Positions 38,732 to 64,000 of a stretch of 64,000 bases of DNA are shown here, piece by piece. Source of the DNA: Gamarada debralockiae (Eukaryota; Ascomycota; Leotiomycetes; Helotiales; Hyphodiscaceae); contig NXFV01000767.1 of assembly GCA_002803225.1 (NCBI GenBank), forward strand, positions 1 through 64,000, written 5' to 3'. Numbering within the stretch: the first letter of the stretch is position 1; every line of letters begins with the position of its first letter. A program made the translations under genes and the position numbers. Below the pieces are notes generated by a model. It had not been told where the DNA came from and did not search any database. It saw only the letters and a list, made by a program, of their open reading frames with translations.

Positions 38732-40896
38732 ATGGAGGAGCGGGGTCTTCGGATTACAACATGGAACGGTAAGCCTTCTGGATCGTTCTGAGAGCTTTGC
38801 TGATCCATGGCAGTGAACGGAATCAGGTTCGTCTTCATGTGCGATTATGGATACTTCTACAGGCGCACTCTATCTGGAGTACTTGAGAACTAATTCTAAC
38901 GACGGGTCAGGAATCCATTCGGATATCAACCATGGCGGAAAGAGAGGACTTTTGCGGTACGAATAGCTTTCCTTGTGCTCCTAAATAGAATGCTGACAGA
39001 TCTGCAGGCAATGTTCGAAATTCTCGAGGCCGATATTGTGGTTATGCAGGAGACCAAGATACAAAGGAAGGATCTTCAGGATGACATGGTACTTGTACCT
39101 GGGTGGGATGTGTTCTTCAGTTTCCCAAAACACAAGAAAGGTACGCGATGGCTGAATGCATGCAATGAATGGGAAGCGCTGACAGCCAATATGCAGGCTA
39201 CTCTGGAGTAGCAATCTACACCCGAAACTCAGTCTGCGCCCCAATCCGAGCAGAAGAAGGAATCACAGGCATCCTGACCCCTCCAAACTCCTCCACAAGC
39301 TTCTGGGACCTTCCCAAAGACCAACAAATCGGCGGATATCCCACTCCCACACAACTCGCCGACTGTCCCATCGATATTGCAACTCTTGATTCCGAAGGCC
39401 GTTGTGTCGTTCTCGAATTCCCAGCCTTCGTTCTCATCGGGGTCTACTGTCCAGCCAACAGAGACGAAACTCGTGATAACTTCCGAATCGGCTTCATCAA
39501 TGCCCTAGATGCCAGAGTACGCAATCTTGTGGCGGCTGGGAAAAGAGTCTTTCTGACTGGGGACTTGAACATCATTCGAGAGGTGTTGGACACGGCGAAA
39601 GCGGAAGAGCACATGAAGAAGCAGGGCATGACGGTTCAAGAATATGTATCCACACCATCCAGGCGGATGCTCAACCAATTATTGGTCGGTGGCAAAGTCT
39701 TTGGAGAAAGAGATGAAGGCAGAGAGAAGCCAGTGATGTGGGATATATGCCGCTCATTTCACCCAGATCGCCCAGGCATGTTCACTTGCTGGGAGCAGAA
39801 AATCAATGCTAGGCCTGGCAATTTTGGTTCTCGGATAGACTACGTTCTCTGCAGCCAAGACTGGAAGGACTGGTTTTGCGAATCAAACATTCAGGAGGGT
39901 CTCATGGGCTCTGATCACTGTCCCGTGTACGCTGTGTTGAAACAGAAGGTGGACATTGGTGGCGAAGAGGTTAATATAAGGGATATCATGAGCGCCGGCA
40001 TGTTCAAGGACGGTGTTCGCCAGCGAGAGTGGTCTACGAAAGATCTCTTACCCATGTCAGCCAAGCTCATCCCTGAATTCGATCGAAGACGTAACATTCG
40101 AGATATGTTTGCGAAGAAGCCATCGTTTACAACAGGAGAGAGCTCCTTCTCCAACAAGTCAACTACAGACGAGAGCCAAGAAAGAAATCTGGCTTCAACT
40201 CTTGGGACCTCGCAGAAAGAAAACACGCCACCGGTTGACTCTCAGTCCACTTTAGCCTCCAGTACGACGGCAATTGCATCTGATTCTCAATCAACAATGA
40301 TGGCAAGCCCAGCGAAGCCAAGCGCAAAGCGTACAGCAGAACCATCCTCTTCCGCAGCACGACCTTCGAAAAAGGGGAAATCCGGAGCAGCCTCGAAGAC
40401 AGCTGTGCCTGCGAAAGGTCAGCCAGGGAAAGGACAAAGCAGTCTCATGGGATTCTTCAAGCCCAAGGTCCCTCAGTCCGATGGTGTGGTAGATAGTCAA
40501 TCGACAATATCGGCATCAACAGTTGATGGAGAGTCAGACACTACGAGCATCGCTGCTTCGGATTCCCCAACACCAGCTCAATCAGCCACGGACTTTAGCA
40601 GCAACGAATACCCATCACCAAGCAAAAAATTTGATCCTGCTGACCAGAAATCGGTGGTCGATCCGATAGTTGCGAAGGAAAGCTGGTCGAAGCTTCTTGG
40701 AAAACGGAAGGTCCCTCGTTGCGAGCACAACGAGCCGTGCATCAGCCTTGTCACCAAGAAGTCCGGAGTGAACGAAGGAAGATCCTTTTACATGTGCCCA
40801 CGACCGATCGGGCCCAGCGGTCAGAAAGAGAAGAACTCACAGTGGCGATGTGGGACTTTCATATGGAGCAGTGACTGGAACGGTGATGGGACTTGA
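38732..40896 (+). CDS. APN2: Class II AP endonuclease / DNA lyase 2 (APN2)
   Basis: Five exons, 38732-38768, 38814-38826, 38911-38956, 39008-39140 and 39197-40896, keep frame into about 642 residues. The ExoIII-type nuclease core shows ITTWNVNGIRNPFGYQPW, then ADIVVMQETKIQ (catalytic Glu), YSGVAIYTR, VYCPANRD, FLTGDLNI (Asp/Asn) and the C-terminal SRIDYVLCS and GSDHCPV (catalytic Asp-His). A Ser-rich linker follows with the PCNA-binding box QSSLMGFF at about residue 490. It ends with a GRF-type zinc finger around residues 583-642 (CEHNEPC, FYMCPRP, WRCGTFIW). The enzyme repairs abasic sites and 3'-blocked ends in the nucleus. The second exon is a 13-nt micro-exon that restores WNVNGIR. APN2 is the standard left border of the MAT locus. 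Confidence 0.95.
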
Positions 40897-41530
40897 GAGG
40901 GAGTGCAGGATATCATGAGATCAATAAATGCCAAAGGAGACGCTGGCCTCGTCGAGACTCTTAGATGGGGGTCATTCTTCACAAAGGTATGGATTGGGAG
41001 ATATTCTTCTACCAATGAGACTTCTGCTAACTTTCCAGTAAGGGTTTGATCTCTTTTCGACTCTCGACGAATTTATTTCATTAGTATATTACTGAGATTG
41101 GGAGCATACCGTCTGAATAAGATACCCGCTAATGAAGGAGTTTGTAGAGGTGTTCAGGAATACAGTGGCTATGGAGCTTAACACATACCACAAATATCAC
41201 GATGTAAGTAGAGCATTGAGGGGTAAATAAAACCTGCATTTAAGCTACTTCCTTGCTCTGCAATCTCCGCCGCACTTCTTCGACGCCCTTCTTCCTCAAT
41301 TGAATCCCCTTTCCTGAATTCTTTCTCCCCAGCTCGTACCCTTCTTGATAAGCCCCTTCAATCCATCCTCCGTAATCGCTTAACGATCTTCTTAAACCCT
41401 CAATTCGCATCAATGATCGTGATGCGCTCCTTTCCCCTCCCTTCCAAACCCCCTGGCAAATCCCTATCTCACGTGAACGACTTCCTCCATTTTACTCTGT
41501 GCCTGAATTGAGGGCGTTGGAATTGCCCTT

Positions 41531-41798
41531 CCACAATGCGATAATTCTTGTCTTTCTAACTTTCAAGGCCGAAACATTGAAATCAGTGCCGATTCTAATA
41601 GAAATCTCAAGAAAAGGAGGACGTTGGGGACTCTATCCCCAATGCGGTAATTTCGTTCTTTCCTACCTTCCAAGGTCGAAACTAGAAAAATTCCTTGTTT
41701 TGTTCTTTCCCTAAAGCGGTAATTAGGGTAAACGCTAACTTATATGGCTGAACGTTTTCAGCCTTGAAGGTTAGGAAGACAACAATTACCTCATTGGG
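41531..41798. repeat. Cluster of four roughly 44-bp repeats on the APN2 side of MAT
   Basis: Copies lie at 41531-41575 (plus), 41636-41682 (plus), 41709-41753 (plus, most diverged) and 41756-41798 (minus). The consensus opens CCCAATGCGGTAATT and closes TTCAAGGCCGAAAC. The last two copies face each other and form a near-palindrome. A fifth copy in minus orientation lies at 48001-48044, beyond the MAT genes. No coding potential is seen. Confidence 0.75.
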
Positions 41799-42100
41799 CG
41801 AACTGTGGCTGCTAGAGCGCGGAGGGTTGGGCTGCGCTTCGCTGCTGGGGATGGGGAGAGGGGAGGGTTACGATTGAGGATTTGAATCTTGTTTGGTAAG
41901 TGAGATTGAATTGCGATCGTAGATTAGATTTGATGTTTCTTCTGCTGCAGGATCAAGGAGTTGAGGGGCGTTGCTCGGCGGTTGCTATGAGCGCTGGGAC
42001 TAATGAGATTTCGGTCGTAGCAGATCATGATGAAGCAGCACAACAATCGCAGCACTGGGAAAGCAGGTTGGGTTTCAGCACCATTTTCCTATCTAATCTA

Positions 42101-42285
42101 CAGAGGAAGCCTAAGCAAAGAGTTTGACCTGGGGAGATCTGATTCAATATCAAAGGTACAAGATTGCCCGAGAGCTTCCTTCTTCCATATCTATCGAGAA
42201 GCAGCCTTTCGAAAGAGTCTGATCTTGGAAGATCTGATTCGATGTCAAAGTACAAGAATGCCCAAGAACTTTCCATCTTCTGTAT
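42101..42285 (+). repeat. Diverged tandem duplication (about 93-bp unit)
   Basis: Unit one (about 42101-42194) contains GGAGATCTGATTCAATATC and GTACAAGATTGCCC. Unit two (about 42195-42285) contains GAAGATCTGATTCGATGTC and GTACAAGAATGCCC at the same relative offsets, with matching flanks (AAAGAGTTTGA versus AAAGAGTCTGA). It lies between the 44-bp repeat cluster and the 3' end of MAT1-2-1. Confidence 0.75.
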
Positions 42286-42859
42286 AAGTGTCCATGTATG
42301 AAGTCTGTCATGTCCGCCCATTATGCCGCCATGGGAAAGGAAAAACAGAGAGATCAAAAAAAATTTTGGCGGCTTCCATATTTCGCCATGTCGCATGTAA
42401 GAAGGGAAAGAAAATCAGAATGATCGCGCGTAATATGTACAGTAGAAAGATATTTCCTAGAGACTGTCAAGATATAACTGAACGTAAGGCGGATGCCAAC
42501 ATAGAGCGCCAATCAAGATAGACCAGAAGAATGAAGTGGGTTGAAAGGTATTCGCGTTGGTGAGAATTCGATCCAGTGGGCTCTCGACGATCCAAGGTGG
42601 AAACAGAAATCGTATGTGTAGTAGAGTGTGGTGTATGATCATGCCAACGGCAGAAACGTGTATCGAGAACTGGCAGAATGTCAGAAGCTCGAGGGAGAAT
42701 GATTGGACTGTGGTGGATGTTGTGTCAAAAGATATTGGAATCAACGGCCCCGAAGTTTATGCACGTTGTTGTAATTCATTGGCGGTTGCTCAGAGGTGGA
42801 AAGCCCACTGCACTGGATATGAGGTGCCGTTTGAATTGCATGGATCCAAGGCACACGCC

Positions 42860-44055
42860 TCACAAGAGCCAATCCAGCAATGCATCATTAGCTTCCCAAT
42901 TAACCGGCTGTAAGATGTCTGCATCGAGAAACAAATTATTTGGAGGCTGCTCATATGCTCTGTCATTGTTCTCCATGCCGAACAATTGGAAAGGCTGCCA
43001 GTTGATGGTCAGGGAGGGTGCGGAGGAAATCGAAAACGGATCTCCATCGCCACTGGATTTTGGGGTATCATCCGTATCTAAATTGACCTCAAATCCAGAG
43101 CCGTGTTCATGGTCGTCACGGTGGTTCGGGGAGGGATTTTCGACGCCTTGAGAAGTCTTTCCTGAGAGCCGAGAGGACTTCACTGCAGGAAGGTCTGCTT
43201 CGATGCTGATCGGAGTTTCCTTGGATGTCCTCTTTCGCTTCTTAATCTCCGAAGGCTTACGGGGAGAACATTTGTATTGGGGATACTGAAGCTGGTGCTT
43301 CGCCTTCTCTAGGTCTGCCAACTTTTTGTAATGAGCCTTAACCTTGGCGGTCTCGTTACGCCACATATCACCGATGATTGTAGCTGTTCATTGTCAGCTT
43401 AATTACGGTCCGGAAGAAGGGATATACACTTACAAAGGTTGCTGGTATGCATTCCAGGGTTCTCTGCCAAGACGGTGCTGTGCTTATCTTGACGATAGAT
43501 AATCCACATGTTTCGAGGCTTCGGTATCCTCTCAGCTTTATGCTTCGATGAAGGGGGCCTAGTATCAGAAGCGATGGAACTGTGCTCAGCATTTTGAGAG
43601 TCTTGCGAAGGCTGAGAAACCGGGGAGAGGTTGTGTACAACTGAGTTGGCGTCATAGAGCTGTGGGTATTCAGCTTTGTAGACGAAGATGCATCCCTTCA
43701 CGGCGCGGTGATCCAAATCATCAAAGACCTGTCCGACACGGTACGATGACTTTTCCACATCGAAGTGAATGTAGACAGGAGTCTCGAGAAGTACACTGGA
43801 AGGAGATGTTAGACATTGCCATGTAGAATATAACCCATAATCTCACCTCAATCTCGTAGCCGTTTCGCGCAAATGATAAGCCCCCATTTGGGTTCCCATA
43901 CCGCGAGGGAGGAAATACACGATCTTGCCTTGGTCGCGTAGTTTAAGATGATCCTTCCAGAGAGCTTGGAACTGCTCCCTCTCAACAGCAGATACATTGG
44001 CGGCAACGAGGGCGGCTGTTGTAGAAAATACGGAAGAGGAGGCCATTGTTGACAT
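42860..44055 (-). CDS. MAT1-2-1: Mating-type protein MAT1-2-1 (MATA HMG-box transcription factor)
   Basis: Three exons, 44055-43847, 43795-43434 and 43383-42860, join in frame to 364 residues. The HMG box spans about residues 160-235: IPKPRNMWIIYRQDKHSTVL, then IIGDMWRNETAKVKAHYKKL and a basic end SPRKPSEIKKRKR. The second intron (50 nt) splits the serine codon after the first base within the box, the intron position conserved in MAT1-2-1 genes; this argues against the other MAT HMG gene, MAT1-1-3. The N-terminal domain includes VEREQFQALWKDHLKLRDQG. The protein is a nuclear DNA-binding regulator of mating identity and sexual development. It is divergent from the unknown gene at 44388. An alternative start is Met 4 (44046). 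Confidence 0.88.
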
Positions 44056-44387
44056 GTTCGATGATGGCGTAGCAGCGAAGAAAGAGGTGGCTTCTGTGAT
44101 TATGATTTTTGCGAAGTCCGAGATTCAGGATCGAGAATTTATATTGAGAAAAGGTATGAAGCTTTTGGGTTGCAAGATCCCCAGAGGCGTTGAATTTGGG
44201 GATGTGTGTGGGGAGGAAAAGTGAGGTAGTTTGAGTTTGTGCAAGGCGAGGACTTCACTTTAGAAAATTCACCAGTATATGACAACGCCGACCACGTCCA
44301 TAAAAAGCGATTGAAAAATTGAAGCCAGAGACACCTCTTTTCCTCTCTCCAAATTTCAACTCCAACATCAATTTCGACTCCGCCAAA
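44056..44387. promoter_or_regulatory. Divergent promoter between MAT1-2-1 and the unknown MAT gene
   Basis: 332 bp between two start codons pointing outward. Both genes can be co-regulated from this interval, a common layout within MAT idiomorphs. No specific binding site is asserted. Confidence 0.5.
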
Positions 44388-45626
44388 ATGCCAAAGTCAA
44401 AACTCCCAAAGCCAACTCGATTCGGCCAGAATATGACAATGGAAGAAGTTTTGAAAGCGATCGACAAAGTAATAGAAGAGCCTATTCTTGTTCAATTTCA
44501 AAAGTTTGTTGAAAGTAAGTCTAAATGAAGACATCTCTTAGAAACGCTTCCTAACTTGGCAGGCTTAACAGTAAGCAAGAAGCCTCGAGAGCGGGCATTT
44601 CTCATCAACCTCATTCGGGACGTGTTTTACCTGGTCTTTCTCATCGGCCACGAAATTGCTATAGACGTCACAACTAAGCGTAAGGATGATGAATTGCCTC
44701 AAGACGCTAACGTCATTGCAAACTTCCTCGGCGAGGTTTTGGATGAATGTCGTAGGCTGGAAGCTGCCCCCGAACTCTTTCCATCACCGTCCACGAGGGA
44801 AGCCTTCTTAACGAGGATCGCAAGTCTGTGCTCCGTTATTGGAAGCGTTGGTGAGATTGCGAAGCAGCATCACTCCTCTATGTGGCACGTTTGGAATCTC
44901 GATCTCCAATTTATCGACAGTATCGGTCCTGACTATCCCGACAACGATCGCGCCAAATTACACTCACTTCTTCCGAAGACTCTTCCTGCATTCCATCCTG
45001 ATAGACGAGATGCCAAAAATCCATGGAACAACTGGCTGGATAACTCGGCAAAGCCTGCTCCTGGATGGATCGCTGTTCAGCAGAAGATACCCCGAATCGG
45101 CGATGTACTGAACAGGAAGAAAATTCGCGAATATGATACTATTGAGGCGAGTGTTGAAGAGGTAAGTTCTTCAATACTTCAAGGCACAGAGTGTTACAAT
45201 GCTCAGGAGCTGACCACGAACATCCAGGACCAACTTTTGACTCGAGATCCAGAGGTAAGTCGGATGCTTTCAACGAAGATTCGAGATTGTAGCTAAGACG
45301 TCGCATAGAATGACTCGCCCCAGATCCCTACAGTGGGCCACAAGTTCAAACATATGACGTGGTCAGGCTTTTGTACGGTTCCAAGATACAGCGTAGGATT
45401 CAGGATAGGCTCAAGGAAAAGCTACGATAGGGATGATATTGTAACGCTAGAGCACTTGAGCAAAGTCCTAAGAGGTATGGACTTGGGTGAGTTAGATCAA
45501 GTCGTTCGGGGGCCTCGAGCTTTCCCAGGCATACCTCTAGGTTTCCAAGCAACAAGGGCTAGGGTACGAAGATATTTGAATTCGAATGTTCCCTACTTCA
45601 GATACGCAATGGCATACAAGCCTTGA
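44388..45626 (+). CDS. Unrecognised protein encoded inside the MAT locus
   Basis: Four exons, 44388-44514, 44563-45161, 45207-45254 and 45309-45626, keep frame into 363 residues. The third and fourth introns (45 and 54 nt) are multiples of three, so retention of the 45-nt one would stay open. The protein begins MPKSKLPKPTRFGQNMTMEE. It has a helical section with AFLINLIRDVFYLVFLIGHE and VIANFLGEVLDECRRLEAAP, an aromatic HHSSMWHVWNLDLQFID, then NPWNNWLDNSAKPAPGWIAV. It ends with a basic VGFRIGSRKSYDRD and FPGIPLGFQATRARVRRYL. I see no HMG box, alpha box, signal peptide or catalytic motif. Its position between MAT1-2-1 and MAT1-1-1 makes it a candidate lineage-specific MAT gene, such as those named MAT1-1-5 or MAT1-2-4 in Sclerotiniaceae. 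That assignment is by position only. Confidence 0.8.
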
Positions 45627-45886
45627 AGTAGATAAATAGATAAATAATACAAACAAACGCTTCACTCAATGAGAGCCAGCGATTCATATACTCAGGTACA
45701 AAGAGTAAATCGAGACCAAGAACAAGAAGGATTAAGCGTGGAATGTGCGTCCTTTGTTCCTTAGCGCCAAACCCAGTCGACTACTCAGTTTTAAATTTCG
45801 CGTTCTCCCAACCGAAACTTGAACCTCATAACATTCAACAGCATCATCAAAAGCACAATAATCGCCTGAAAATACGACTACAAATT

Positions 45887-47031
45887 ATGGCGACCGTCAC
45901 TATCAATGGCCAAATTGCCGGCATGACTCCAGCCCAATTTGCATCCCTTCCTCCTCACTTGAAGTTGCAACACTCGACCAAGATGCCCAACGAGTTCCTG
46001 ATGAACAACGCGGTACTCTCTCGAAGACAGGCACACAGGCTTGGTCTCTCAAGTGCTGCGCCTCATATCTTCCACCCTGTCCATGCCAGAGCAACTCGCC
46101 CTGCTCTTGCCGCGAAACGCCCACTCAACTCTTGGATGTGTTTTCGGACATTTTATTTTCCCATCTTCACGTCTCTTCAGCAGAAGAATGCGTCCAGCTA
46201 CCTTACCCTCATGTGGCAGCAAGATCCTTTCAAGGCGAAGTGGACTATTCTTGCGTGTGCATACTCCGCCATCCGCGACAATGTTGGCAAGCCAAATGCG
46301 CCTCTGGACCAATTCCTCAGTCTCGTTTGCCCAGAACTCGGCATCATCGATACTGCAGACTACTTGCAAAAGATGTCGTGGGAGCTCGAGATTGATGTTG
46401 ATGGAGTTATGAAATTGAAGCAGGTGTCGGTTCCAGATATCGCTTCTTTCGAAGACCACATCAAGCATACCATCATGACTGAGAAGGATGTCATCCATTT
46501 CTGCGCGCAAAAGTTCTTCATCGCCCACTCCACCGCCATTGCCATCGCGGGCCAACCTGCAGCAGCTCAACAAGGCCTTCTTGCTACTGCTCCAGTTGTA
46601 CCCAACACGCCACCTGCCCCCAGCAATCAATTCCTGTGGCAGACAATCACCAATCCGCGCGCCGCTGCTTCTGATGCCTTGGGCTTCGATGTCAACCAAT
46701 TTCTGGACCTAGCTGAGCAATCCGAGTCGTCCAACCTCCCATCTCTGCCACCCCCAGCTCCATACGAGTGGACTGGATGCATGGCTGATCTGTACAACCC
46801 CGCTGAAGGCACGTTCGACTTTGAGGGACTGGGAAATAACTATGCCACTCCTCTCTTCGACACCGGTAACATCGCCGACCCTCAGAGCTTTGATGCGATG
46901 TTTGGTGAAGTCATCCAGGATGGATTCTTCCACCCCTCAAGTAAGCAGTCCTGAACCCCAGCCCCAAAGACCTTCAGCTAACTTTCGCAGTCCCGGAGAG
47001 TCAAGACGACCTCATCTCGCCCTTCTTCTGA
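45887..47031 (+). CDS. MAT1-1-1: Mating-type protein MAT1-1-1 (alpha-box transcription factor)
   Basis: Two exons, 45887-46940 and 46991-47031, join in frame to 364 residues and replace the read-through end KQS with IPESQDDLISPFF. The alpha box spans about residues 74-155: AKRPLNSWMCFRTFYFPIF, then MWQQDPFKAKWTILACAYSA, RDNVGK and LDQFLSLVCPELGI. This is the core of the HMG-fold alpha domain that defines MAT1-1. Unusually, no intron interrupts the alpha box; the only intron is near the C-terminus. The C-terminal half is Pro/Ala-rich and acidic, suggesting an activation region. The start at MATVTINGQ is preferred; an in-frame Met 48 codons upstream exists. It is in tandem with the unknown gene, about 260 bp downstream. 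Confidence 0.93.
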
Positions 47032-48806
47032 ACGATTGATCCACTCCTCTGGAGCAAACCATCGCAGTCTCGGTAACAACGCCTCCCACAGCCAGAACTG
47101 CAATCCATACATCAGACCGACTCTTGTACACAGTCGTCTCGACCTCAAGTCACAGCAGCAACCATCTTCTATGTTGATGTGGGACCAGTACATTACGACC
47201 TCCTCACCATACAATTGTATCTCTGTTCAATTTTCCTTTTCCACAGGGCTGTGGCTTGTTTGGTATGAATCCAGCATCCCAGCATCCCAGATTCCAGTTT
47301 TTCCGTTCTCGAACATACCTTCATTCCGCATCGTGCCGTCAGGGTGGTAGTCACTTGTCGTATCGTCGGTACTGCGCAGGAGACACGCACATGCACGGTT
47401 GAATCACTTTGGCGCTGAGGAGTCCAGACTACGTTCAGGAATCCAAAGGCGTCGAATGATCACATTCCCAGTAGATAGAGCGAATTGACATAATTTCAAT
47501 GATTGGTGGTGTTGCAAAGGTGTCGATGCTTTTTTGTTGGAATGTGCGTCGTGAAAATAAAGGTTGCACCATCTCACAAGCTAATGCAGCAAGGGGTTCC
47601 TTCCCGGGAATTCAGCGTTTCTAATTCGGTTTGGCTGCCGTCACTCTACCCGTTGTCTAATTGAAGTCCGTGCTTCCCTTCGCTTCCGACTGAGAAAGAT
47701 CCGCTCAATGAACCTCATCTGCTTCCTATCCTAGATGGGATAGATCTTTATTGTCTTTCGCAAACAGAAAAGAAGATATTATCCAGCTCTTCAGATCAGT
47801 TAGTGGCTTCAGTAGCTCTTTAGCTCCTTGCATCACACGAACTCCTTGCATCCCAAGATATCTGCTGGTGTTACCCCTCCCTCAAAGATGGAGGGTGGCG
47901 ACTGGCCCAGCAAAACCCAACATCCACAAAGTCCAAACCCGATCTCTCAGTGGCTCGAAAATTTGCAACCTCCTCAAGCCCTTTTCAAAGGCTTATCAGT
48001 GTTTCGGCCTTGAAAATTAAGAAGCCAAGAATTACCGCATTGGGAAAAAGGCGATCCAAACCTCCTCCTTTTTTGAACAATCTGAATGATTGAGCATCTC
48101 AGACTATGATTGGATCTAGATCCAGTCCCTACTGACCAGAATTGTACCGGTGCAGACTGCTCAGTTCTTCTAAATTCACGCTTCATACCTTCCTGGAGAC
48201 CCTATTCCATCATAAAAATAGTAGAGTTGCTACCATTTCCGTGAATTGGTGGAGTAAAATTGTAAAGCATGTTGATGTGAATATGCTAAGTTCGGCTTCG
48301 ATATTAAGATTTCTCCGAACCTCCATGATAGGTAATCTTGAGGTGAAGCCGTAGACTCTTTCTTTAGTTTTGAACCAAATACTCAAAATCGGTCTCCTAT
48401 ACTTCTCATGGTCCTTGCTATCCGTGGTTGTCAAACACATGATATTCATGCAGTAAATGCAAGAAGGTATGATATATATCGAAGTAGGGAAATTTCCGGA
48501 ACAAACAAAAAGCCATGATGGCATCGCGGTATACTTCCTTCTCTTATATCAATTCTAAAAGTTCCTGTATGATGATTACCAGCGCTTTGGGATCTTTTGA
48601 AACGCACTGAAAAGAAAACGCTTATCAAGTCTGATACATGAAACGCCCCCTTCTACACGTCACAGTTCAATTCAAGCATCAAAGCTAACACATTCACATC
48701 AGGTCTTGAGCATCTTCGTTTTTGCAACTTTTTCGAATTCACAAAATGAACTTCGCTAAACTACGATCTCCTGTCGTTTCTCCTATTCCACGCATCCTGT
48801 CCCAAC
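47032..48806. other. MAT1-1-1 to SLA2 intergenic region
   Basis: About 1.8 kb between two convergent genes. Other than the 44-bp repeat copy at 48001-48044 I see no gene, no truncated mating-type fragment and no RNA gene. Open frames (47036-47350, 47751-48020) have no domain. Confidence 0.55.
48001..48044 (-). repeat. 44-bp repeat copy on the SLA2 side of MAT
   Basis: Starts GTTTCGGCCTTGAAAATTAA and ends AATTACCGCATTGGG, the reverse complement of the repeat clustered at 41531-41798. It matches those copies over the full 44 bp with scattered substitutions. It is inverted relative to three of the four copies and direct relative to the fourth (41756-41798). Confidence 0.8.
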
Positions 48807-51800
48807 TTACTCCTGATAAGAGACCTTCCTCATCTCACCCAATCTCTGCCTTGCTGCAGCCAAATTATTCTCAAGTTGGAGGATCTCGACCTATTTTTGC
48901 TCTCGTTAGCAATCGTTCGGATGGAGTGAGTAATTGGGGTCTGAATTATTCAAATTGGCTGGGCAGTTCGGGCCTCAATCGCTCCAAGATATTGAGCAAT
49001 TCGACTTCCAATTGTCAGGAGTGAGCAATTGAAAGCCCGATCGTTCTAAAGGGTTGAGCAACCATGGCTCCAATTGTTCCAGAGTGTTGACCAATTGGAC
49101 TTCCAATCATCGGGACATCACACACGTCAAAATTGGAAAAGGGTGAACAAACCTGCTGCTCCATCTCCCTAACCTTAAACTCGTGCGCTCCCAACTTCGC
49201 ATAATCCACCCTCTCATCCTCCTGATCACGATCCTTAATCATACTCTGCACCTGTCTGACCAAAGATCTGCATGCCGCACCAACAGCTTTGCTTGCTTGC
49301 TCAAGTGATTCTTGACTCTTACTCATGAAGCCCGCCTTGACTCTGCTTGCTGCTACAAGTTGGGCCGTGGAGGCAGCAACGTCATTGGAGGCAACGATGA
49401 GTTGTTCTGGGCTGTTGCGGCCAGAGAGCACTCCATCTGCAGTCTCAATCAAAGTGTTGGTCGAGGAAGCTACCGCTTTGGCGGCAGAGATAAGTCCTTC
49501 GGTCCAGCGGTTGTTCTTCTTGTAGAAGTTGCTCTTGGAGACGGAGCCCCGACCAGCTTCGACGATCTCTTGTTGAGTTACGGTTGCTGCCTTGATGAGC
49601 TTGGCGATCGCGTTCGTTACGGCCATCGCGGCGTCGAGGATGGAGTCGTGAATGCGTAGTTCGTAGGTCGAGTATCCGTCCTTAGGCTTCGACTTGAGCT
49701 TCGCAAGGCGAGCAGCAGCAGCGCTAATGGCATCGGCGGCTTTGTTCAACTCGCTGTCGACGAGATCTCCCAAGTCGCCCTTGTTGTTGGCCAACTTACC
49801 ACTGTTTGGTGCAAAGGTATCGACGAGCTTGTTGAGCTTCTGCAGATTCATTTGCACATCATTGTTATTGTTGATAACGACGTCTGTCTTCTGCATCGGA
49901 TCCATGCCATCGAGTCGGAAGCTTTGAAGACCACGGAAGAACTTGACAGTCGATTGAGCCGATTGTCTGGCACCGTTGGTCAATTGATCTGCCTTCTTTT
50001 CATCCGTCGCAAGTCTCTGAAGACCCTTGGTGTTGCTGAGGACATCCGCGATGGAGCTTGAGAAGACATTGATCGTTCGAATGATCTCGGCGTGACTGCT
50101 GTTTGGGCCGTCGGCGATGAAGTTGTTGAAAGCGGTTGCGAATTCCGTAGCACTCGAAGAGGCCTTCTCGATTTGAGAAAGGACGTAGGAAGGTGTTGCG
50201 TTTTGGTTACCGGCTTGCATGGAAGAGTCCAATTCGTAGAGAGCGTCATCTACACGCTGAACTCCACTCTGGAGGACGGAATCGATGATATCGTTGATCT
50301 TGCCAATGTTTGAGAGAAGCATAGCGTCAATCTCCCCATCCAGAGCTTCATCTGTTGCTCCCTTGGAGTGCTCTAATTCGTTGAGCCGAAGCAGGGTATC
50401 GTCCAAACTTTGCTTGTACACCTCTAGCTCATCTTCCTTCTCCCGCAGCAAGCGCTCTGCGTCTGAACCACCTTCACTGTACTTCGCATGAATATCTTCA
50501 AGAGCACGGGACTTCTTTCGAAGAGCCTCCTCAAGATCGGACATTTCGCGGTTGTACTTGGAAAGCATTGAAGAGAGCTCATTGCCTTTGCTTCGTTCGA
50601 GGTTATCAGCCCGGTCAAGAGCCATGCGCAGCTCGCGCTTGAGTTTCTCCATTTCCTCACGGTTACCTCCAGCCAAACGATCTTTGTCATGCAATGCCCG
50701 ATCTCTCTCTCTGATCATGTCGGCAAGCTCGAGATTCTTGGTCTTGATCTCACGCTCTAGCTTCTCGCGCTTATCGATGGCTTCCTGTGCAGAAGCAGCC
50801 TTGAGTTGCACACTCTTGAACTTCTGCAGCAAATCGAGATGCTCATGTCGTAATTGGGAATACAGCTTGGCAAGTGCCTCATACTTTGTCCGCCAAGTAT
50901 TGACTTGTTCTTGGAGAGCTCGAATCTGGTCATCCTTGCTACCAATCTGCTGTCCGTAGTTGTTCTGGAGTTGCATGAGCTCGCCCTCCAAGGCCTTGAT
51001 CTTTTGATCGTATTGCTGGAGCATAAGCTGGTCTCTCGCATACTGTGCCCGAGCCTCAAAGTTCTCCTGCTCCAATTGTGCCATGCGACCTTGGGTCTGT
51101 TGTTGCATTTGTTGTGCGTATAAAGCTTCCTGGTCCCGTCTTTGCTGCTCAGCCAGCTGGCGCTGCTGTTCTTCGAAGTCTCGTTGTGCCTGAAGCTGGG
51201 CTTGCTGTTGAGCATAGAGCTGTTGGGCTTGCTGGGCCTCTAATACTCTCTGTTGCTCCTCATACTCCCGATTCTGCCTAGCTTGCTCATTCTTCCAGAA
51301 TTCCCCAATGTCATCTGGTTCCTCGACTTTGGGAGCTGGAGGGGGTGTAATCTGTCTCTCAATCTCCTGCTTGGGTCGTTGTGGTAATTTGGGGGCAGAT
51401 TCGTCTTCGGAGAGGAGGTTAGGGGGATCTTGTGGAAGTTTTGGGACGGTAATTAAGCTTGTGAGATATCGGAGATTGGAGCATTCGTAGTAGAACTTGA
51501 CAAGGCGGTAATGCTGGGCATCATATCGTCCCCTCAGGGGCTCTAGGGCATCATCGTCGCCAGTTGCTAGAAGATTATCAGCACTTGCAGCAGGAACATA
51601 GGCGGTATGACTGACTCGTGTGCATTGCACGCAGCATGCTAGTGATGAATTTGTAGATTCCATAACTCTCCTGCACCAGAGGAACCAGGGCGGAAATCCT
51701 ACACTCATTATTGCCGCCGCTCCGGAAATGAGAGAAGATCAACTTCTGGAATTGCTCTATCCTATCCTGAAGCATCATCAGGTCCGAAATCGTTTCGTAG

Positions 51801-52517
51801 CCTTCATTCGGATCATTGATTCCCTTCAAGCTGATATATTCCTCATATTCGAAGGTGCCATTGAAGTCTGGATGTTGCTGATGGAAGGTCAACTTCGCCA
51901 GGAGGAAATTGACGTATTCCTTAATCAAAGGCCCATATCCCCGCAGACCCTCTCCAGCCATGCCTCTGTTCAGACTGTCGATCCAGCTTCGATTTGCCAT
52001 TGCATCTCGTAAGGTCGAAGGATGACCCTCCTGCAGGACTTTGTGGACCGTGATCAGCGCCTTAAAGGTCTGCACCTCATCTGCCAGGATTGGTTGCCTG
52101 CAAAACATTCAGGTTAGCTGCTTGTTCCATAATTCCTGCCATTCTCATGGACTGCGGAGCTCCGGAACCCCAACGCCCCAACAGCCCATGGGTTCCAGCA
52201 GCACTTTATTGACGGCCCAAACCAGAAGATAGACAATACTAACACTTTCATGCCAGCCCAGAAGGCGGCAGACGACTTGTGGTCCCATGTGTAGACAATA
52301 CAGCTCCGCACATGCTTGCGTTTCGGCGCCGTCTCTTCGATGCTGGTGGCCTTTCGAATATTGATCGCAAGCTCGCCCTCGGATCTATAACAGGTAAAAT
52401 TAGCATACAAAAGTCCTAGGAAGCTAAAGCATCCAAATCTGAGATATTTGAAAGCTCTAAAGTAACTGACTTGGTGTGGTCGACGTTGCGGGTCGTCGGG
52501 GCATAGTTTAGAGACAT
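48807..52517 (-). CDS. SLA2: Cytoskeleton assembly control protein SLA2 (ANTH / talin-like actin-binding)
   Basis: Five exons keep frame into about 1,055 residues: 52517-52471, 52384-52244, 52097-51616, 51566-49153 and 48890-48807. The N-terminal ANTH domain (residues about 15-270) has INIRKATSIEETAPKRKHVR and FWAGMKVQPILADEVQTFKA. A Pro-rich linker leads to a very long Gln/Glu/Arg coiled coil (about 330-690). The C-terminal talin-like THATCH domain has NAIAKLIKAATVTQQEIV and LIVASNDVAASTAQLVAASR, closing with EILQLENNLAAARQRLGEMR. Sla2/HIP1 couples clathrin coats and PIP2 to actin during endocytosis. The conserved C-terminal block is reached only by a 262-nt last intron. SLA2 is the standard right border of MAT loci. 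An in-frame Met 10 codons upstream is an alternative start. Confidence 0.94.
48924..49116. repeat. Minisatellite in the last SLA2 intron
   Basis: About six imperfect units of 31-33 bp, each with a core like GAGCAATT followed by CTTCCAATTGT or a variant (GGAGTGAGTAATTGG, TTGAGCAATTCGACTTCC, GTGAGCAATTG, TTGAGCAACC, TTGACCAATTGGACTTCC). The array lies entirely inside intron 48891-49152 and explains why this intron is several times longer than its neighbours. Confidence 0.7.
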
Positions 52518-57078: not shown

Positions 57079-60000
57079 TTACCATTCCAAATCCAGGTCT
57101 GCCATCTTCCCCGATAATTCCTGCATGACTGGCTCCACAATTGCCTTTTCCATCTTCAATCTCGCTTTTTGCCGTGTTCTTGTGTAGAAGACAGGGCAGT
57201 CCTTGCTGTCACAAGCCACCTCGTCCAACGGTGATACTCCTGAACAACTTTGACATACCTTGTGAAGGTCCAAAAGTTTTCTTTCCTCAGCATTCAGCCT
57301 CGTTCGCAGTGACAGCAGCGAGATCGGTTTATCCGCCCAGCAAACCTGACAAATGGGACCCTCAGACTCAAGCTTCTCTCTGCACACGAGGCAGGACGAA
57401 GATTTCATGTACGATTCCAAAGTCTTCTTGCTGATGGCTAGCTCCTTCGATTGTCCTTGGAGTTGGAGATTGGCATCAACCCTACGGATTCGTTGGACCT
57501 TTGGCATCTCATCATACCATTGCCGGACATTCGCTCCCACGAGATTGAAGATCCGTTCAAGAGGTGGGATGAGGTTCTTCGAGATGTAGTATTCAGAATC
57601 CAATTCGCTGTGGTCGTTCTCAAGTAGCTCTTCTGGAGCAACGCATCGATCGATCAATCGAGCTCCTGGTGCTCCAGTGATGACCACATATGGGACACGC
57701 TCGCCATACTGGGGTTCTGCTCGAGCGTCTTGAAGCATCTTCTTCGTACTGATCAGAGCGCCAGGCGGGGGCGGTCCTTTATCACTATATGTGCCAAGCC
57801 TGACTTCCCTTGCGAAGCAGAAATCCTGGACGGAAACGGAGCCTTTCATGATTTTCTCGCACTCGCTCTGGAAGTAGCTCTTGACTTGACTCAAGTCCGC
57901 TGTACGGAAGAGAATCTTGAGGGCTTTCTCCTCGATCTTCTGCTCCGCGGGTGTGCCATCTCTGCGCACCGTCTCAATTCCCTTTGCGTCGAAGTCCGGC
58001 TCGGTTTGGTTTCTGTGTTCGTATTTGAATCCCACGTAGCGCTTCTTCGCTAGGAGAACGCAGGGGAAATAGACCTTTTCAAACTTGAGCTTAACCGGCC
58101 GTGGGTTCATATTTGTAACTGTCTTTGCAATCTCTTCGCCAATGTCGAATGCCTGCTCCTTGGTGCGGCCTTTGAGATAGACAAACAAACTGTCTGTGTC
58201 GCCATACACAATCTCTGCGCCCCAGCGTTTGACGGAGTGGATGAGGGCAATAGCCTTTTCGAGTGTCTCACGGCCAGTCTGCACAATGCTATCCGCAATC
58301 TCGGAACATGGCATTCGACCGGAGAAAGAGGCAGATGTATAGCCATAAGTGACATTGGCGATGAGTTTCAAGGCCAGTTGTCTGTTGTTGAGTAGTCGTT
58401 GAAGCGCAATGTCATCCTTGTCGACTTTCATCCCGCTCTTGACCATCACTCGAGTCTCAAGGATTTCGCCTAACATCTTGGCTAGAAGAGATTTTCGAAT
58501 CTCAGGCTTGGTATACATCATGCCATTCGGAGAGATGTTGATGTAGTCTTTGAGTAGCTCGAGAAGTCTTTGTTGCCTTCTGAACTCCGTGAAGCCCATC
58601 TTGTTGGTCCCACGCCAGTTGACTATCCGTCCAAGGAATGTAGAGTAGCAATAGTTGTAAGCAATCATGACACTTGGATACAGACTCTGGAAATCGAGTA
58701 CTAGTAAGGGACTGTTGTAAAAAGCGCTTTGGGGTTCCATGACGAGGGGCAAGCACTCCAGAGCATTTTGCCCACCGACCTGCTTACGGCTGGGAGAGAC
58801 GAGCACGAAATTCTCTGGTTTCGCAATCCGGAACATCAGAGATTCGACTTTGAATTGTGATCCCCGGGAGAAGACTGAGAAGAAATCCACACCGAGTAGA
58901 CGAGCCTGCTCACTTGTTCTGGCGATGAGCTCGTTCTTGTCAAGTATTTCCAAGTCAAGCTGGACTCGAGAAATGTAATAATTTATGACCTTTGCTAGAT
59001 CTCGAGGTTTGCCGCTCGTATACCATCTTGTCAGGTCGGCCCAAGTGAAATGGGGAATCCGACGATGTAGCAGATGGAAAGCAACGTTCTCCATAGTGTA
59101 CTGCAAAAGATTTAGCTCACTCCGCATTGCTCGCCATATATTGATCATATGTCTGCCAGTCACTCGAATTGTTGAAGTATGAGTGAAGCCCCATTTGTCG
59201 TTGTCCTTTCCGAAACGTCCATGAGACTGGGCCTTCATTCGTGAGAATTCGTCGCAGAGGTTGTGGTCATATTTGAGGCGGGCACGCTCGATGAGATATC
59301 CCCAAGAACCGCCGTGGACTTCATATCCGGTGAGGATATCCGGATCGTGGGCTCTGACGATTTCAACCATGCGGATAATGAGGTCTAGCTCTGAAGACTC
59401 CTTCTGAACTTCAACTGCAGTCTGCCTCGAGAGCTTCTCTGCTATAGAGCCATCTTCGGAAAGAACCACAATTCCAACATGTGTGCTTTCGGATATTCCA
59501 TTGCCTTCGAGACCGTCCTCGTCTAATTGTAAGCACCAAAACAAACATTGAACCTCATCTTCCTCTGGATTTGGCACAAAGTTGCCTCTCGTATTGACAT
59601 GAACCTCCAGACTCATGGTACTCATATACTGTGCTTCACGCTGAACATTAGAGGTCGCTTGGTTCTGGGTGAACTTGAATCCATGCTTATTCTTTTGAGT
59701 GGGGCCGTCAATCTGAGATAGTTTTCTGTTCGCTCGAGGACTGACAGCTGTTCGCACAAGAGCTGGTCTCTTTGCCACATTGGCTGTACTCCTTGCTTGC
59801 TGGTCACGGAACCATTCGTCTACCTCTCCATACGTCGGCGGAAGTTCTGCAATTTGCCAGCTCTTCAGGTTACAGGCACGTCGTCGGCGCTCATAACCTT
59901 TTTCTTCCTTCGACTTGTCCGGTACTACGGCTTGCTTCTCACCAAACGTCGCATCGGATATACCTATTGGATCGAAATTGGGAAGATAGGGGACTGTAGA

Positions 60001-62307
60001 GCTTTCGAGTTTGAACTCTCGTCCGGCCCATTCTCTTGCACGTTCGGGAACATCTGTCTCGTCACTGTAGAAGGCATCCTGGTAAATAGCCGGCGGAAGA
60101 TCAAAGTTTTGCATGGTTGACACAACTTCAAGAGAGGACGGCGGAGGTTCACCGAATGCCAAGATTGTTCCATGGCTCTGAGGACTAAACTTCTGTCTCA
60201 TGCTCTTGATGACTTTCGACATCGGGAGAAATGATTGGGTGCTGGACGAGAGACTTGAACTCATTACAGATAGGGGCTTGCCTTCGCTATAGGTCAATGG
60301 CAAGAAAGGATCGAACGAAACTTGTTTCTTCTTCTCAGACGGACTTGGCTGAGATGCACTCTTTTGGCTCAGCCTCAAGATAGTTTCCGGGTCAAAAGGA
60401 TCTTTGACAACCGGGAATCCAAGGGGTTGCGTCTGTGAAACCCCTTTCGTTCTAAGTGATTCCTGGGAGGACATTTTGCCCATAGAGGTTGTTGGGAGTA
60501 GAGAAGCTCCGTCCACAGTCCGTGGCTTGAGATTCGGTCGTCGATTCCCTTCCACCTCGAGCTTTGCTGCTGGAGTGTCAAGGTCTAACGGGGTAGCATC
60601 CCCGAAGGATAGCCTTTGGCGCTTGTTATAAGCATTGAGCTGCTCCGCTGGAGATTCAGACCGTTTCAATCCTTTCCTAGTGGATTTGACCTGGGCCGAG
60701 GATTTTTCGTTCATTGATGGGATTGAGACGTAGCCGGAACCAGACACATCAGGCTGTGGACTTTGCCCCTCAGCAGAGTCAAGGGTCCCTCTTGCAGCTT
60801 CCGAAGAACTGCTTGGGTCGCTCAGTGCATTTTTATCTGCCGGATCAAGGAATTGTGCCGCATAGTGGTCGCCGCCAGGACGGGATTCATCGTCAATATC
60901 ATGCTCCGCTTTTTGCATGTCTTCTGATTCCAGGTACTTCTCGTCCACGCGATCTCCATTCTTGCTCTGGGAGAGATCCATTTCCCGCATAGCTTCTTCA
61001 TCAGAATCATAGAGTTCGTCGACTTCGTTGAGGCCAAAGCCCAAAATGCGATTCTCATCCACCTCGGTCTCTTCTTGGTCGTTGATATCGTAATTGGCCC
61101 CTCCTACGCCTCGAGTCAAACCGAGAGCCGGACCTAAGTTCTCGGGGTACAAGTCCTCCACAGCTTCCAAGCATGTTTTCACATACGATTCGAATTGAGA
61201 GGGCTTGACAAAGGTTCCAAAAGCAATCTCTGCGCCATCACTCTTGTTCTTCTCGTCCATAATGAGAGCCATTACCTTCTCCCTGTACTCCTCTTCATGA
61301 ATCCATCCTCCTGGTTGGGAATTCCGAGGATCAGCTGATATCGAAATCATGACTTCAGCAGGAAAGGGACTGCTGCCAGGTTCAGGATTCGACATCTTCG
61401 ACTTTCGACGACGGGTTTCATCTTTCCATAAGCCAGCCATGCTGTGGACTAACTTCTCATCCGGGGCCAGCGGGTTCAGACGCTCGATGAAGTCATGGTG
61501 GAGGGGTCTTGGCTTGATATCCCGTCGATTTAGGATATCTTGGACACAGATATCCACCTCGATGGAGCAGTGACTGACTCTTGGAAGGACAGATTCGTCA
61601 GTCACAAGTTCATATGGGATCGAACGGTCATGCCATAGATGAGATAGATTATTTAGTTCTTCGTATATCGGGACCGGGCTTCGAAATGTGACTTTCTTGC
61701 AATCGATATATCCGCATCCGTACAGGTTGTAGTCCACCATCCATTGTAACAGGTATTGAAGATGTGCTTCGTACGGCTGGAAGACTCTCTTCATGACAGC
61801 ACCTTGGCGTAGAATGTCTGCAAGTCGAGTCATTACCATCGGATTGAGCATATAGATCTTGAGGTAATATCTGTATCCCACATGGAAGCCATAGAAGGGA
61901 GTCCCTTTGACGAGCGTTATGCGTGCGACGTACTTCGCGTTGCCATCGAAGGCCTTCCGCCGATAGCTGACCCCGAGCGCAGCATCGATTGACAAGTGGA
62001 GGCGATGGATGTAAGCACCAACTGCAGCTTTGTGAGTGGCAAACCAGTAAATCTACATGGATTTCAACAGACCTTCGTCTGGATTCAGGCTTCCCGTGTA
62101 TTCGACGTATAGGTACGGAAACGCGCCATGGATATGCGCGCAAACCTTCTGACCAGTCTCTGTGGAGCCAAAGACTCTGATAACTGGAACTTTGGGTTCC
62201 TTGTCACTCTGCGAGGGTTTGACATTGTTTCGAAGGACAGGATCGAAGGGGGTTGGAGTTGACTGGTAATTATCTATGCAGTTCAACCGGACGCGGAAGA
62301 GGTCCAT
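57079..62307 (-). CDS. REV3: DNA polymerase zeta catalytic subunit REV3 (translesion synthesis)
   Basis: Two exons, 62307-62073 and 62021-57079, join in frame across 51 nt into 1,725 residues. The N-terminus MDLFRVRLNCIDNYQSTPTP and VFGSTETGQKVCAHIHGAFP is the family's B-type N-terminal domain. After a long Ser-rich insert with an RNKRQRLSF-like basic stretch comes the exonuclease-like domain, where SLEVHVN replaces the catalytic D-x-E, consistent with no proofreading. The polymerase motifs are DFQSLYPSVMIAYNYC (A, about residue 1185), KLIANVTYGYTSASFSGRMP (B) and VYGDTDSLFVY (C, about 1352). Two C-terminal Cys clusters (CLVCREK..CQVC and CQSC..CDSKDC, about 1615-1700) bind zinc and the iron-sulfur/accessory subunits. 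It extends mispaired ends at DNA lesions in the nucleus. Confidence 0.96.
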
Positions 62308-62517
62308 GGCGAGGAAATGATATCAGTCTGGAGGGCGCATTGGGTCTTCGACCGCAGAGTACATTGTTGAGCGATTCAATACAGGAGAGTGAAGCGTGAA
62401 GAGGTGTGGATGTTGTTTTCGTGACGCGTGCTGAACGCCATATCACGAGCCAGGCTCCAGGCTGATCAACCCCCACATTCTTTTCCAGCACAACTTTTCT
62501 GCACAACAACCTTCAAT
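62308..62517. promoter_or_regulatory. Shared divergent promoter of REV3 and SLU7
   Basis: Only 210 bp separate the two outward-facing start codons, so promoter and 5' leaders of both genes must overlap or abut here. Confidence 0.5.
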
Positions 62518-63927
62518 ATGCCTCCAGCAGGCACACAACCTCGAAAACCGAACGCTCCTTCAGCGGCAAACAAGGAGGCAAACGAATACATTCCCTCCTT
62601 CATATCGAAAAAGCCTTTCTACATCGGCGAGGATGACGACCAGAACGACTACCTCGAGCATCAGCGTCTACAGAAAGCTCAGTCAGACCAGTCAAAATGG
62701 TACGATCGAGGTAAGAAAGCTGGTCCTGCTGCGACAAAGTTCCGTAAAGGCGCATGCGAAAATTGCGGTGCCATGACACACAAGACGAAGGAGTGCTTAA
62801 GTCGACCAAGAGCTAAGGGCGCGAAGTGGACTGGCAAAGATATACAGGCCGATGAAGTCATTCAGAAGGTCGATTTGGGATGGGATGCCAAGAGAGACCG
62901 GTGGAATGGCTATGATCCAAAGGAGTACAAAGCTGTTATCGACGAGTACACTCAGTTAGAGGAGCTCAAGAAGCAGGCAGCGGCGGAGGCGAAAGGAGAT
63001 GAGGATGAAGAAGGCGAAGATGGTACGAAGTATGCTGAGGAGTCAGATATGGGAAGACAGCAGAGCACCGCCACCAGGCAACTACGCATTCGAGAGGATA
63101 CCGCGAAATATCTGCTAAACCTCGATCTGGACTCGGCGAAGTACGACCCCAAGACGAGATCTATGGTGGATAGTGGAGCTACTGCAGATACGGCAGCTGC
63201 TTTGGTTGCGGAAGAAGGATTCATGAGAGCTTCAGGAGATGCGGCGGAGTTTGAGAAAGCACAGAAGTACGCATGGGAGTCGCAAGAGAAGGCGGGAGAC
63301 ACGAAGCTACATCTACAAGCAAATCCTACCTCGGGAGAGTATTACCGGCGGAAGGAGAAGGAAGAAGCAGAGGCCAAACGGCAAGCGCATAAGAAGATGC
63401 TCCTGGAGAAATACGGCGACGATGTCAATTCCAACGCCGCTAAGCTCCGTGATACTGCTGTCATCGAGTCTGAAAGATACGTAGAGTATGATGAGTCTGG
63501 TGGGATCAAAGGAGCCCTCAAAGTTGCTGCCAAGTCGAAATATCCTGAGGACGTTCTCATCAACAATCACACATCAGTATGGGGGAGTTGGTGGTCAAAT
63601 TTCAAATGGGGTTATGCTTGTTGTCACTCAATGGTCAAGAACAGTTACTGCACAGGGGAAGAAGGGAAACAAGCATTCGAGGAGGCTGATCGTCTTCGAA
63701 CTGGTGGGGATTTTGTGGGAGAGGAGCCTGTGAAGGAGATCGAGTGGCACTCGAAAGAGGCCCCGGTGGAGGAAGAGCCTGTTATCCCAGCTATGGCCAA
63801 GAAGCGGACGAAGGAAGAGATGCAAGGGGGAGTTTCCGAAGAAGATATGGATGCTTACAGGAGGAAACGGACTGCTGCGAACGATCCGATGGCTGCTTTC
63901 CTGGGCAAAGACGAGCTTTTAGAATAA
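62518..63927 (+). CDS. SLU7: Pre-mRNA-splicing factor SLU7
   Basis: An intronless frame of 469 residues from [20 protein letters not shown]. The N-terminal part has [15 protein letters not shown] and a CCHC zinc knuckle [14 protein letters not shown] at residues about 80-93. It is followed by [31 protein letters not shown], an acidic Glu/Asp stretch and [20 protein letters not shown]. These are the conserved blocks of Slu7, which acts with Prp18 in the second catalytic step to choose the 3' splice site. A further conserved block near residue 360 is [18 protein letters not shown]. The C-terminus has [20 protein letters not shown]. The frame also has codons upstream of this Met, but this start sits at the family position. 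Confidence 0.95.
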
Positions 63928-64000
63928 CTTGATGGAAGCAGTTGCATTAGCGGGCGTTACTAGGTAGCATAGGCAAGGTGCAAACCTTACATGATCAAAG

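Follow-up and report, generated by a model that had tools for sequence, protein, structure and literature searches.

Both mating-type gene sets at one locus and dispersed MAT1-1 relics in the genome of Gamarada debralockiae

Can a fungus whose mating-type (MAT) locus holds the genes of both mating types fertilize itself, and what has become of the DNA of such a locus elsewhere in the genome? We addressed this question in Gamarada debralockiae (Leotiomycetes, Helotiales), in a 64,000-nucleotide stretch of DNA referred to here as the window (assembly GCA_002803225.1, contig NXFV01000767.1, positions 1 to 64,000). The window is part of a 165,928-base contig (C351) of a 54.3-Mb assembly in 1112 contigs. 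An original prediction, made from the letters alone, had placed an HMG-box gene (MAT1-2-1) and an alpha-box gene (MAT1-1-1) side by side in the window and had concluded that the fungus can self. Our analysis indicates that the two genes, together with MAT1-1-5 as an accessory gene, very probably form a fused MAT1-2/MAT1-1 locus of the primary-homothallic kind. In addition, decayed pieces of the MAT1-1 half, and of no other DNA used as a query, are found on 11 other contigs. Published sources are cited by their PubMed Central (PMC) identifiers.

Both mating-type gene sets at one locus

The identities of the genes, their completeness and the linkage of both MAT sets at a single locus are supported. 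The gene order is APC5, COX13, APN2, MAT1-2-1, MAT1-1-5, MAT1-1-1, SLA2, a PH-domain protein, a family-B DNA polymerase and SLU7 (names based on Pfam; Table 1). The window contains no N, and the MAT locus lies in the interior of the contig.

MAT1-2-1 is open in frame with a single terminal stop and two GT..AG introns of 51 and 50 bp. Its HMG box scores 73.8 bits against a Pfam cut-off of 25.4 (E = 1.5e-20), and the second intron lies inside the box, where it splits the serine codon TCT after the first base, a position called conserved (PMC3961304). The box, this intron and the place near APN2 and SLA2 identify the gene. Its protein relatives in Scytalidium, Xylogone and Chlorociboria share 44-45% identity over 61-68% of the query. 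In a translated genome search, the matches of MAT1-2-1 were two to its own exons and two to paralogues with an HMG box, and none to a second MAT1-2-1.

MAT1-1-1 is likewise open in frame with a single terminal stop. The frame 45887-46951 scores 137.4 bits for Pfam MATalpha_HMGbox (cut-off 28.1, E = 4.7e-40). Among its 19 protein relatives, the best-scoring ones share 63-64% identity over 67-73%, and the highest identity is 81% over 42% (P0025). The intron of the gene model is supported by those relics, described below, that retain its GT and AG around a diverged interior.

Between these two genes, and divergent from MAT1-2-1, sits MAT1-1-5. The region 44388-45626 matches no Pfam family; the gene is recognized by its place beside MAT1-1-1 and by similarity to proteins named MAT1-1-5 in Diplocarpon (Marssonina) coronariae and Drepanopeziza brunnea (32-35% over 87-94%), and its five best protein matches reach 49-57% over 54-63%. 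Its intron 2 is supported by the unspliced predicted frames of two relatives (P0001 and P0003), which continue into the same VSSS letters, and intron 3 by relics that keep GT and AG around a diverged interior. All relatives were compared as proteins. The named MAT protein relatives, with 32-45% identity, are mostly Leotiomycetes; other named protein relatives are from Tothia (50% over 38%) and Eutiarosporella (40% over 23%).

These results confirm what the original prediction observed and support its interpretation in part. The outer coding ends coincide exactly with its span of 42860-47031, the start codons at 44055 and 45887 give the spacing of 1.8 kb that it stated, and the open frames and Pfam scores confirm an intact HMG-box gene with a serine-codon intron and an intact alpha-box gene, neither of them truncated. 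The bracketing genes are also as it had named them, with ANAPC5, a COX6A/COX13 exon and an APN2-like endonuclease with a GRF finger on one side and SLA2 (I/LWEQ and ANTH domains) on the other. Its statement that contiguous MAT sets underlie primary homothallism in some Leotiomycetes agrees with PMC10569646. It had correctly described the genes MAT1-2-1 and MAT1-1-1, and had overlooked MAT1-1-5 between them, the missing alpha-box intron of MAT1-1-1 and the dispersed MAT1-1 relics.

In this one assembly, intact MAT1-1-1 and MAT1-2-1 thus occur at one locus: MAT1-2-1, then MAT1-1-5 and MAT1-1-1, stand where heterothallic relatives would carry only one set. Such a fusion would probably have come about by unequal exchange between idiomorphs, and its point most likely lies in the 332-bp divergent region between MAT1-2-1 and MAT1-1-5; relic coverage begins only within MAT1-1-5, and not in this intergenic region. 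MAT1-2-1 and MAT1-1-5, presumably from opposite idiomorphs, may now have one common promoter there. With both sets in one haploid nucleus, both the HMG-box and the alpha-box regulator could be made, which is the genetic state of primary homothallism, and we infer that the genes are expressed and that the fungus may self. Among 124 Leotiomycetes genomes, 10 have loci suggestive of primary homothallism and five have loci indicative of switching (PMC10569646); judged by its gene content, the locus described here fits the former group.

A relative appears to have an equivalent arrangement. Its MAT1-1-5 (P0001) and MAT1-2-1 (P0038) proteins are both from 15,159-base contigs with the same sources (P0038 is on two contigs, the longest of 15,159 bases), which is a strong hint, though not proof, of equivalent linkage. 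Two further observations concern the neighbourhood of these genes in relatives. The MAT1-1-5 relative P0003 and the MAT1-1-1 relative P0018 both come from 10,058-base contigs (source ena), as would fit a like gene neighbourhood. In Cadophora sp. M221, a predicted protein (P0014) combines an HMG box with a C-terminal half like that of MAT1-1-5, which may reflect either a fusion made by gene prediction or another locus where these genes are neighbours.

One alternative is mating-type switching, as in Sclerotinia, Chromocrea and Ceratocystis: one gene set would be lost or inverted in the course of the life cycle, and the contig would show the locus in its self-fertile state. Inverted repeats of about 52 bp, seemingly confined to the locus, do flank the MAT genes, and the dispersed MAT1-1 pieces would be compatible with MAT1-1 DNA that was broken or released again and again. 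However, the repeats of known systems measure 115-260 bp (PMC4891775, PMC3961304, PMC5608430, PMC10569646), and those of Sclerotinia and Chromocrea are described as identical and also split MAT1-1-1, which is whole here. The best flanking pair in G. debralockiae is 52 nt long, inverted, 85% identical and outside all genes, and the longest direct pair that brackets a MAT gene is 29 nt at 72% (ungapped comparison of 38000-53500), so that long near-identical repeats bracketing one gene set are not found in this interval. Since an inversion between the two arms would flip all three genes and break none, the repeat is not read as a switch, and we regard switching as quite unlikely.

The flanking pair belongs to a repeat of about 43 bp with four copies, which match at 40, 38, 38 and 30 of 43 bases. 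If a one-base shift of the last copy is set aside, no other place in the window exceeds 24, and a shuffled window reaches 23 at best. A 23-mer pattern with up to three mismatches finds five matches in the genome, three of them here (one or two mismatches) and two elsewhere (three mismatches), and a backward control finds two. The repeat therefore appears to be confined to MAT in this genome, where it may mark a former idiomorph boundary or serve as a binding site.

An assembly artefact or a mixed culture, with two heterothallic idiomorphs joined in one contig, is very unlikely. Mixed cultures are a known trap (PMC10569646), but in these the second idiomorph typically sits on a separate contig, whereas both gene sets lie here in the gap-free interior of a 166-kb contig, and the two sets are apparently linked in the relative mentioned above as well. 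When the assembly was searched at the DNA level, no duplicate turned up of the 3.2-kb MAT1-2-1 side (40900-44060), of the 7.0-kb flank from APC5 to APN2 (33900-40900) or of the 16.3-kb flank from SLA2 to SLU7 (47750-64000; one of two first-look candidates scored, with the query's own place missing from the table).

Four points tell against a fused, self-fertile locus. Selfing can fail despite the presence of both genes; the evidence is the genome sequence of a single assembly in 1112 contigs; the search with the 16.3-kb flank covered half of its candidates; and the inverted repeats could hint at a past rearrangement.

Table 1. Features of the MAT region and its flanks (positions in the window)
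Feature	Position	Strand	Details
APN2, left flank, main-exon open frame	39169..40896	+	Pfam Exo_endo_phos and GRF finger
Cluster of ~43-bp repeat, left of MAT genes	41529..41805		+ copies at 41533 and 41639; - copy at 41755
MAT1-2-1, HMG-box mating-type gene, 364 amino acids	42860..44055	-	exons 44055-43847, 43795-43434, 43383-42860
Divergent intergenic region MAT1-2-1/MAT1-1-5	44056..44387 (332 bp)		gene models
MAT1-1-5, 363 amino acids	44388..45626	+	exons 44388-44514, 44563-45161, 45207-45254, 45309-45626; open frame
MAT1-1 stretch represented by relics	44591..47525	+	11 contigs: C853, C786, C761, C1078, C657, C1105, C36, C91, C567, C977, C534
MAT1-1-1, alpha-box mating-type gene, 364 amino acids	45887..47031	+	exons 45887-46940, 46991-47031
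Site of missing alpha-box intron	46147..46148	+	relic L041 (C36) keeps a 58-bp stretch here
Fourth copy of ~43-bp repeat, right of MAT genes	47996..48047	-	inverted to 41529-41580, 85%
SLA2, right flank, two open frames	49015..52108	-	Pfam I_LWEQ and ANTH in 49018-51600
Family-B DNA polymerase and SLU7	57079..63927		Pfam

In the flanks, the COX6A/COX13 exon scores 24.5 bits, slightly below the Pfam cut-off of 25, and the second SLA2 frame (51578-52108), from the list of open reading frames (ORFs), was assigned by eye alone. The family-B DNA polymerase beside SLU7 is one that we take to be zeta-type. Outside MAT there are seven HMG-box loci. Three of them (L006, L008 and L012) match MAT1-2-1 weakly or over the box only, and two (L007 and L009) resemble RFG1 and NHP6, respectively, by eye. 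MAT1-1-3 is not among the assigned loci of this kind, although no MAT1-1-3 query was made and L010 and L013 are without assignment. In Helotiaceae, SLU, the DNA polymerase and SLA adjoin MAT1-1-1 (PMC10569646, legend of Fig. 3).

Decayed MAT1-1 DNA on eleven other contigs

A DNA search of the assembly with the 3.7-kb stretch 44060-47750 returned, besides the stretch itself, 18 short matches outside the MAT locus, on 11 other contigs. They cover 57-331 query bases each, with 71-93% identity (gap columns counted) and E-values from 1e-111 to 7e-7. The search scores the best candidates only, so all relic counts are floors (at least 18 pieces in at least 11 places). Merged into 16 segments, the relics account for 2477 of the 3137 positions from 44388 on, at a depth of up to 4; the extent given in Table 1 is from a more sensitive comparison. 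Weak matches of the sensitive realignment (E 0.06-0.5) were dropped, as a reversed-sequence control gave eight of similar strength. Chance or paralogy was ruled out for the alpha-box matches on C1078 and C786, whose open frames are frame-shifted MAT1-1 DNA.

The source of the relics is one-sided. Control queries of 30.1 kb in total (40900-44060, 47750-64000, 33900-40900 and an unlinked 3691-base XPB helicase stretch) yielded no dispersed gene pieces; their sole extra match was the short repeat described above (queries 40900-44060 and 47750-64000). Accordingly, DNA searches found no pieces elsewhere in the assembly of the MAT1-2 side or of the DNA beyond ~47.5 kb.

Three relic sites are composites. 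On C1078, pieces corresponding to 44843-45363, 46258-46552 and 45397-45610 follow one another with 9 and 13 bases between them. On C853, the order within 1 kb is 44591-44689, 46735-46890 and 45851-46145, with 417 and 33 bases between, and on C786 the piece 46164-46536 is followed after 2 bases by the overlapping piece 46300-46382. Four of the five joints thus measure 2-33 bases, and the fifth 417. Next to the C853 relic, a 62-bp segment (L035:5089-5150) that is not found in the MAT locus matches a segment of C210 (L050, C210:4957-5018) at 84%; the segment may stem from MAT1-1 sequence that has since been lost, or may have been captured from unrelated DNA.

Two relics (L038 and L045) retain introns and are therefore DNA copies, which rejects a processed origin from complementary DNA for these two. 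The relic loci, compared over 6-9 kb each, match one another in their MAT-derived parts only, and their guanine-plus-cytosine content per kb is 0.44-0.53. We scanned 20 neighbouring ORFs, from all 11 loci, against Pfam. At 8 of the 11 loci a neighbouring ORF has a domain above cut-off (carboxypeptidase, fructose-bisphosphatase, RFC-like, RabGAP, WD40, adaptin, leucyl-tRNA synthetase, XPB, Tdp1, FAD-linked oxidase and others); none of the 20 has a transposase or reverse-transcriptase domain, and 6 match no family. Carriage by a transposon was rejected on these grounds, namely the lack of transposon domains in the 20 ORFs and the confinement of inter-locus matches to MAT-derived parts. Open frames of 136-177 codons overlap the relic at four sites (L035, L037, L043 and L044); two of these frames were scanned, neither with a family, and we therefore call the sites gene-dense and not proven intergenic.

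As a cause of decay, repeat-induced point mutation was rejected. Across 18 segments, C>T and G>A changes number 135 against 115 in reverse (the direction of change is not fixed for each site), and transitions number 250 against 151 transversions, with no clear excess.

We propose that MAT1-1 pieces, and no other DNA tested, would have been copied as genomic DNA with their introns to at least 11 places, where they then decayed. MAT1-1 DNA would have been released or copied repeatedly, and fragments captured during the repair of chromosome breaks. We favour break capture, which we hold to be a moderately probable route, since MAT1-1 pieces that are non-contiguous or overlap in the source lie a short distance apart at three sites; the one-sided source and the absence of transposon signs also support it.

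The alternative is that the relics are remnants of whole extra MAT1-1 copies, either segmental duplicates or a MAT1-1-bearing mobile element, that shrank by deletion. The large share of the MAT1-1 stretch that the relics jointly represent is what worn full copies might leave, and entire additional copies have a precedent in the class, since Hymenoscyphus fructigenus has a further, unlinked site with intact MAT1-1 genes (PMC10569646). However, the relic loci have only MAT1-1 sequence in common within 6-9 kb, the pieces are shuffled or overlap at three sites, no transposon domain occurs in the 20 ORFs, and neither the DNA past ~47.5 kb nor the MAT1-2 side was found elsewhere. We consider this origin unlikely. 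A single shattered MAT1-1 copy was rejected, as parts of the stretch are represented up to four times, which speaks for more than one event. That the relics are retained because they serve a function, for example in silencing MAT1-1 through small or antisense RNA, is most improbable: MAT-related fragments of Pseudocercospora and Cercospora are reported to be expressed, with no known function (PMC13041039), but the two alpha-box relics first detected carry stops or frameshifts, and two relics differ more from one another than either does from the gene, as expected without selection.

Besides the precedent of H. fructigenus, three points count against break capture of independent pieces. Break repair is read from joined and shuffled pieces within one genome. 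A further 13-kb control was left unscored and stands outside the 30.1-kb total. Finally, L040 resembles L038 (84.6% over 78 bases) more closely than it resembles the gene (80.5% over 133), and some relics may therefore not be independent copies of the gene.

It is tempting to speculate that the MAT1-1 DNA of this lineage, specifically, is or long was broken off again and again, by being cut, excised or copied (for instance through switching-like shedding), and that its fragments were stitched into breaks elsewhere; we put this forward as a tentative and rather doubtful idea. If true, the precise loss of the alpha-box intron described below would be a further mark left by such repeated breakage with templated repair, the fragments of Pseudocercospora and Cercospora could have the same cause, and a record of mating-type instability would be readable in any genome.

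Constraint and probable intron loss in MAT1-1-1

The relics also provide a measure of how the gene itself has evolved. Over an overlap of 221-226 bases, the Jukes-Cantor distances are 0.167 between the gene and L036, 0.131 between the gene and L038, and 0.281 between L036 and L038 (rows L040 and L036b, which run past the homologous part, were dropped). Split three ways, this places 0.0085 (0.9%) on the branch of the gene, 0.16 on that of L036 and 0.12 on that of L038. The alpha box of the gene has scarcely changed while the relics drift, and MAT1-1-1 is therefore under constraint, which supports the expectation of the original prediction that its product is functional.

According to PMC3961304, MAT1-1-1 characteristically has an intron in its alpha box, but in the working gene the frame runs through the box without a break. 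We keep the name because the domain, the place and the homologues identify the gene. The relic on C36 (L041) has a 58-base stretch, GTGTAT..TGCTAAT..CAG, exactly at the expected site, followed by the next exon. Directly before the GT, 18 of 24 exon bases match, a number reached by 0 of 2000 shuffles, and one exon base of the gene is absent at the intron joint. Among the protein relatives, P0026 has inserted letters at this site, and the frame of P0017 begins there with non-matching letters (by eye). The working MAT1-1-1 thus most likely lost its alpha-box intron after L041 split off. The 71% identity of L041 reflects mostly 29 gap columns, with 13 substitutions, and L041 is therefore not established as the oldest relic. 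Near the intron site (46133-46164), relic L035 ends at 46145 and L036 starts at 46164, which may mark a break-prone spot.

Relation to known mating-type systems

The MAT1-2-1/MAT1-1-5/MAT1-1-1 fusion adds to the cases in which the shift to self-fertility can be studied. The relics are of more use than the locus, as the origin of MAT fragments outside MAT has been described as unknown (PMC13041039). They derive from one idiomorph, carry introns, are shuffled in order and have a working parent copy, so that age, direction and breakpoints are measurable; a relic that keeps an intron absent from the working gene dates the intron loss after the birth of that relic.

The closest counterparts of the locus are in Amylocarpus encephaloides, Hymenoscyphus repandus and Phialocephala scopiformis, in which MAT1-1 and MAT1-2 genes also occur together; in A. 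encephaloides, the single MAT locus is flanked by SLA2 and APN2, as here (PMC10569646). The secondary gene of these three species is MAT1-1-3, whereas that of G. debralockiae is MAT1-1-5. The alpha-box intron is missing here, and dispersed MAT1-1 relics are unmentioned for the three in the accessible parts of that source. Hymenoscyphus koreanus, H. occultus and H. albidus share SLU, the DNA polymerase and SLA beside MAT1-1-1 (PMC10569646).

In Sclerotinia, MAT1-1-1, MAT1-1-5 and MAT1-2-1 likewise lie between APN2 and SLA2 (PMC4891775, PMC10569646). The gene order is different and MAT1-2-4 (now MAT1-2-10) is present; the G. debralockiae genome was not searched for MAT1-2-10 elsewhere. Moreover, S. 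sclerotiorum undergoes inversion and S. trifoliorum deletion, and MAT1-1-1 is split by repeats in one form, whereas it is whole here.

Non-working MAT1-1-1 pieces left by rearrangement are also found in Botrytis cinerea, Rhynchosporium agropyri, Monilinia and Marssonina coronaria (PMC3158057, PMC5118889, PMC7864672). In these four heterothallic Leotiomycetes the truncated fragments stand at the border of the MAT idiomorph, whereas the relics described here are on 11 other contigs. A search of the open-access literature, in which most papers were assessed from their titles and the first lines of their abstracts and most subscription papers lay outside its scope, gave no report of Leotiomycetes with MAT fragments scattered beyond the MAT locus.

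A study by Aylward et al. in 2022 reportedly deals, to judge by its title, with pieces of MAT genes that lie outside MAT1 in the Mycosphaerellaceae and Teratosphaeriaceae. The MAT-related fragments outside MAT1 in Pseudocercospora and Cercospora are described as numerous, expressed and of unknown origin, and these families resemble G. debralockiae in having many short mating-type gene pieces outside the MAT locus (PMC13041039). They belong to another fungal class, whereas the pieces here are decayed DNA of the MAT1-1 half only, in a genome with the genes of both idiomorphs. Together, the primary-homothallic fused locus is of an already known kind, and the dispersed relics of one idiomorph and the probable intron loss go beyond it.

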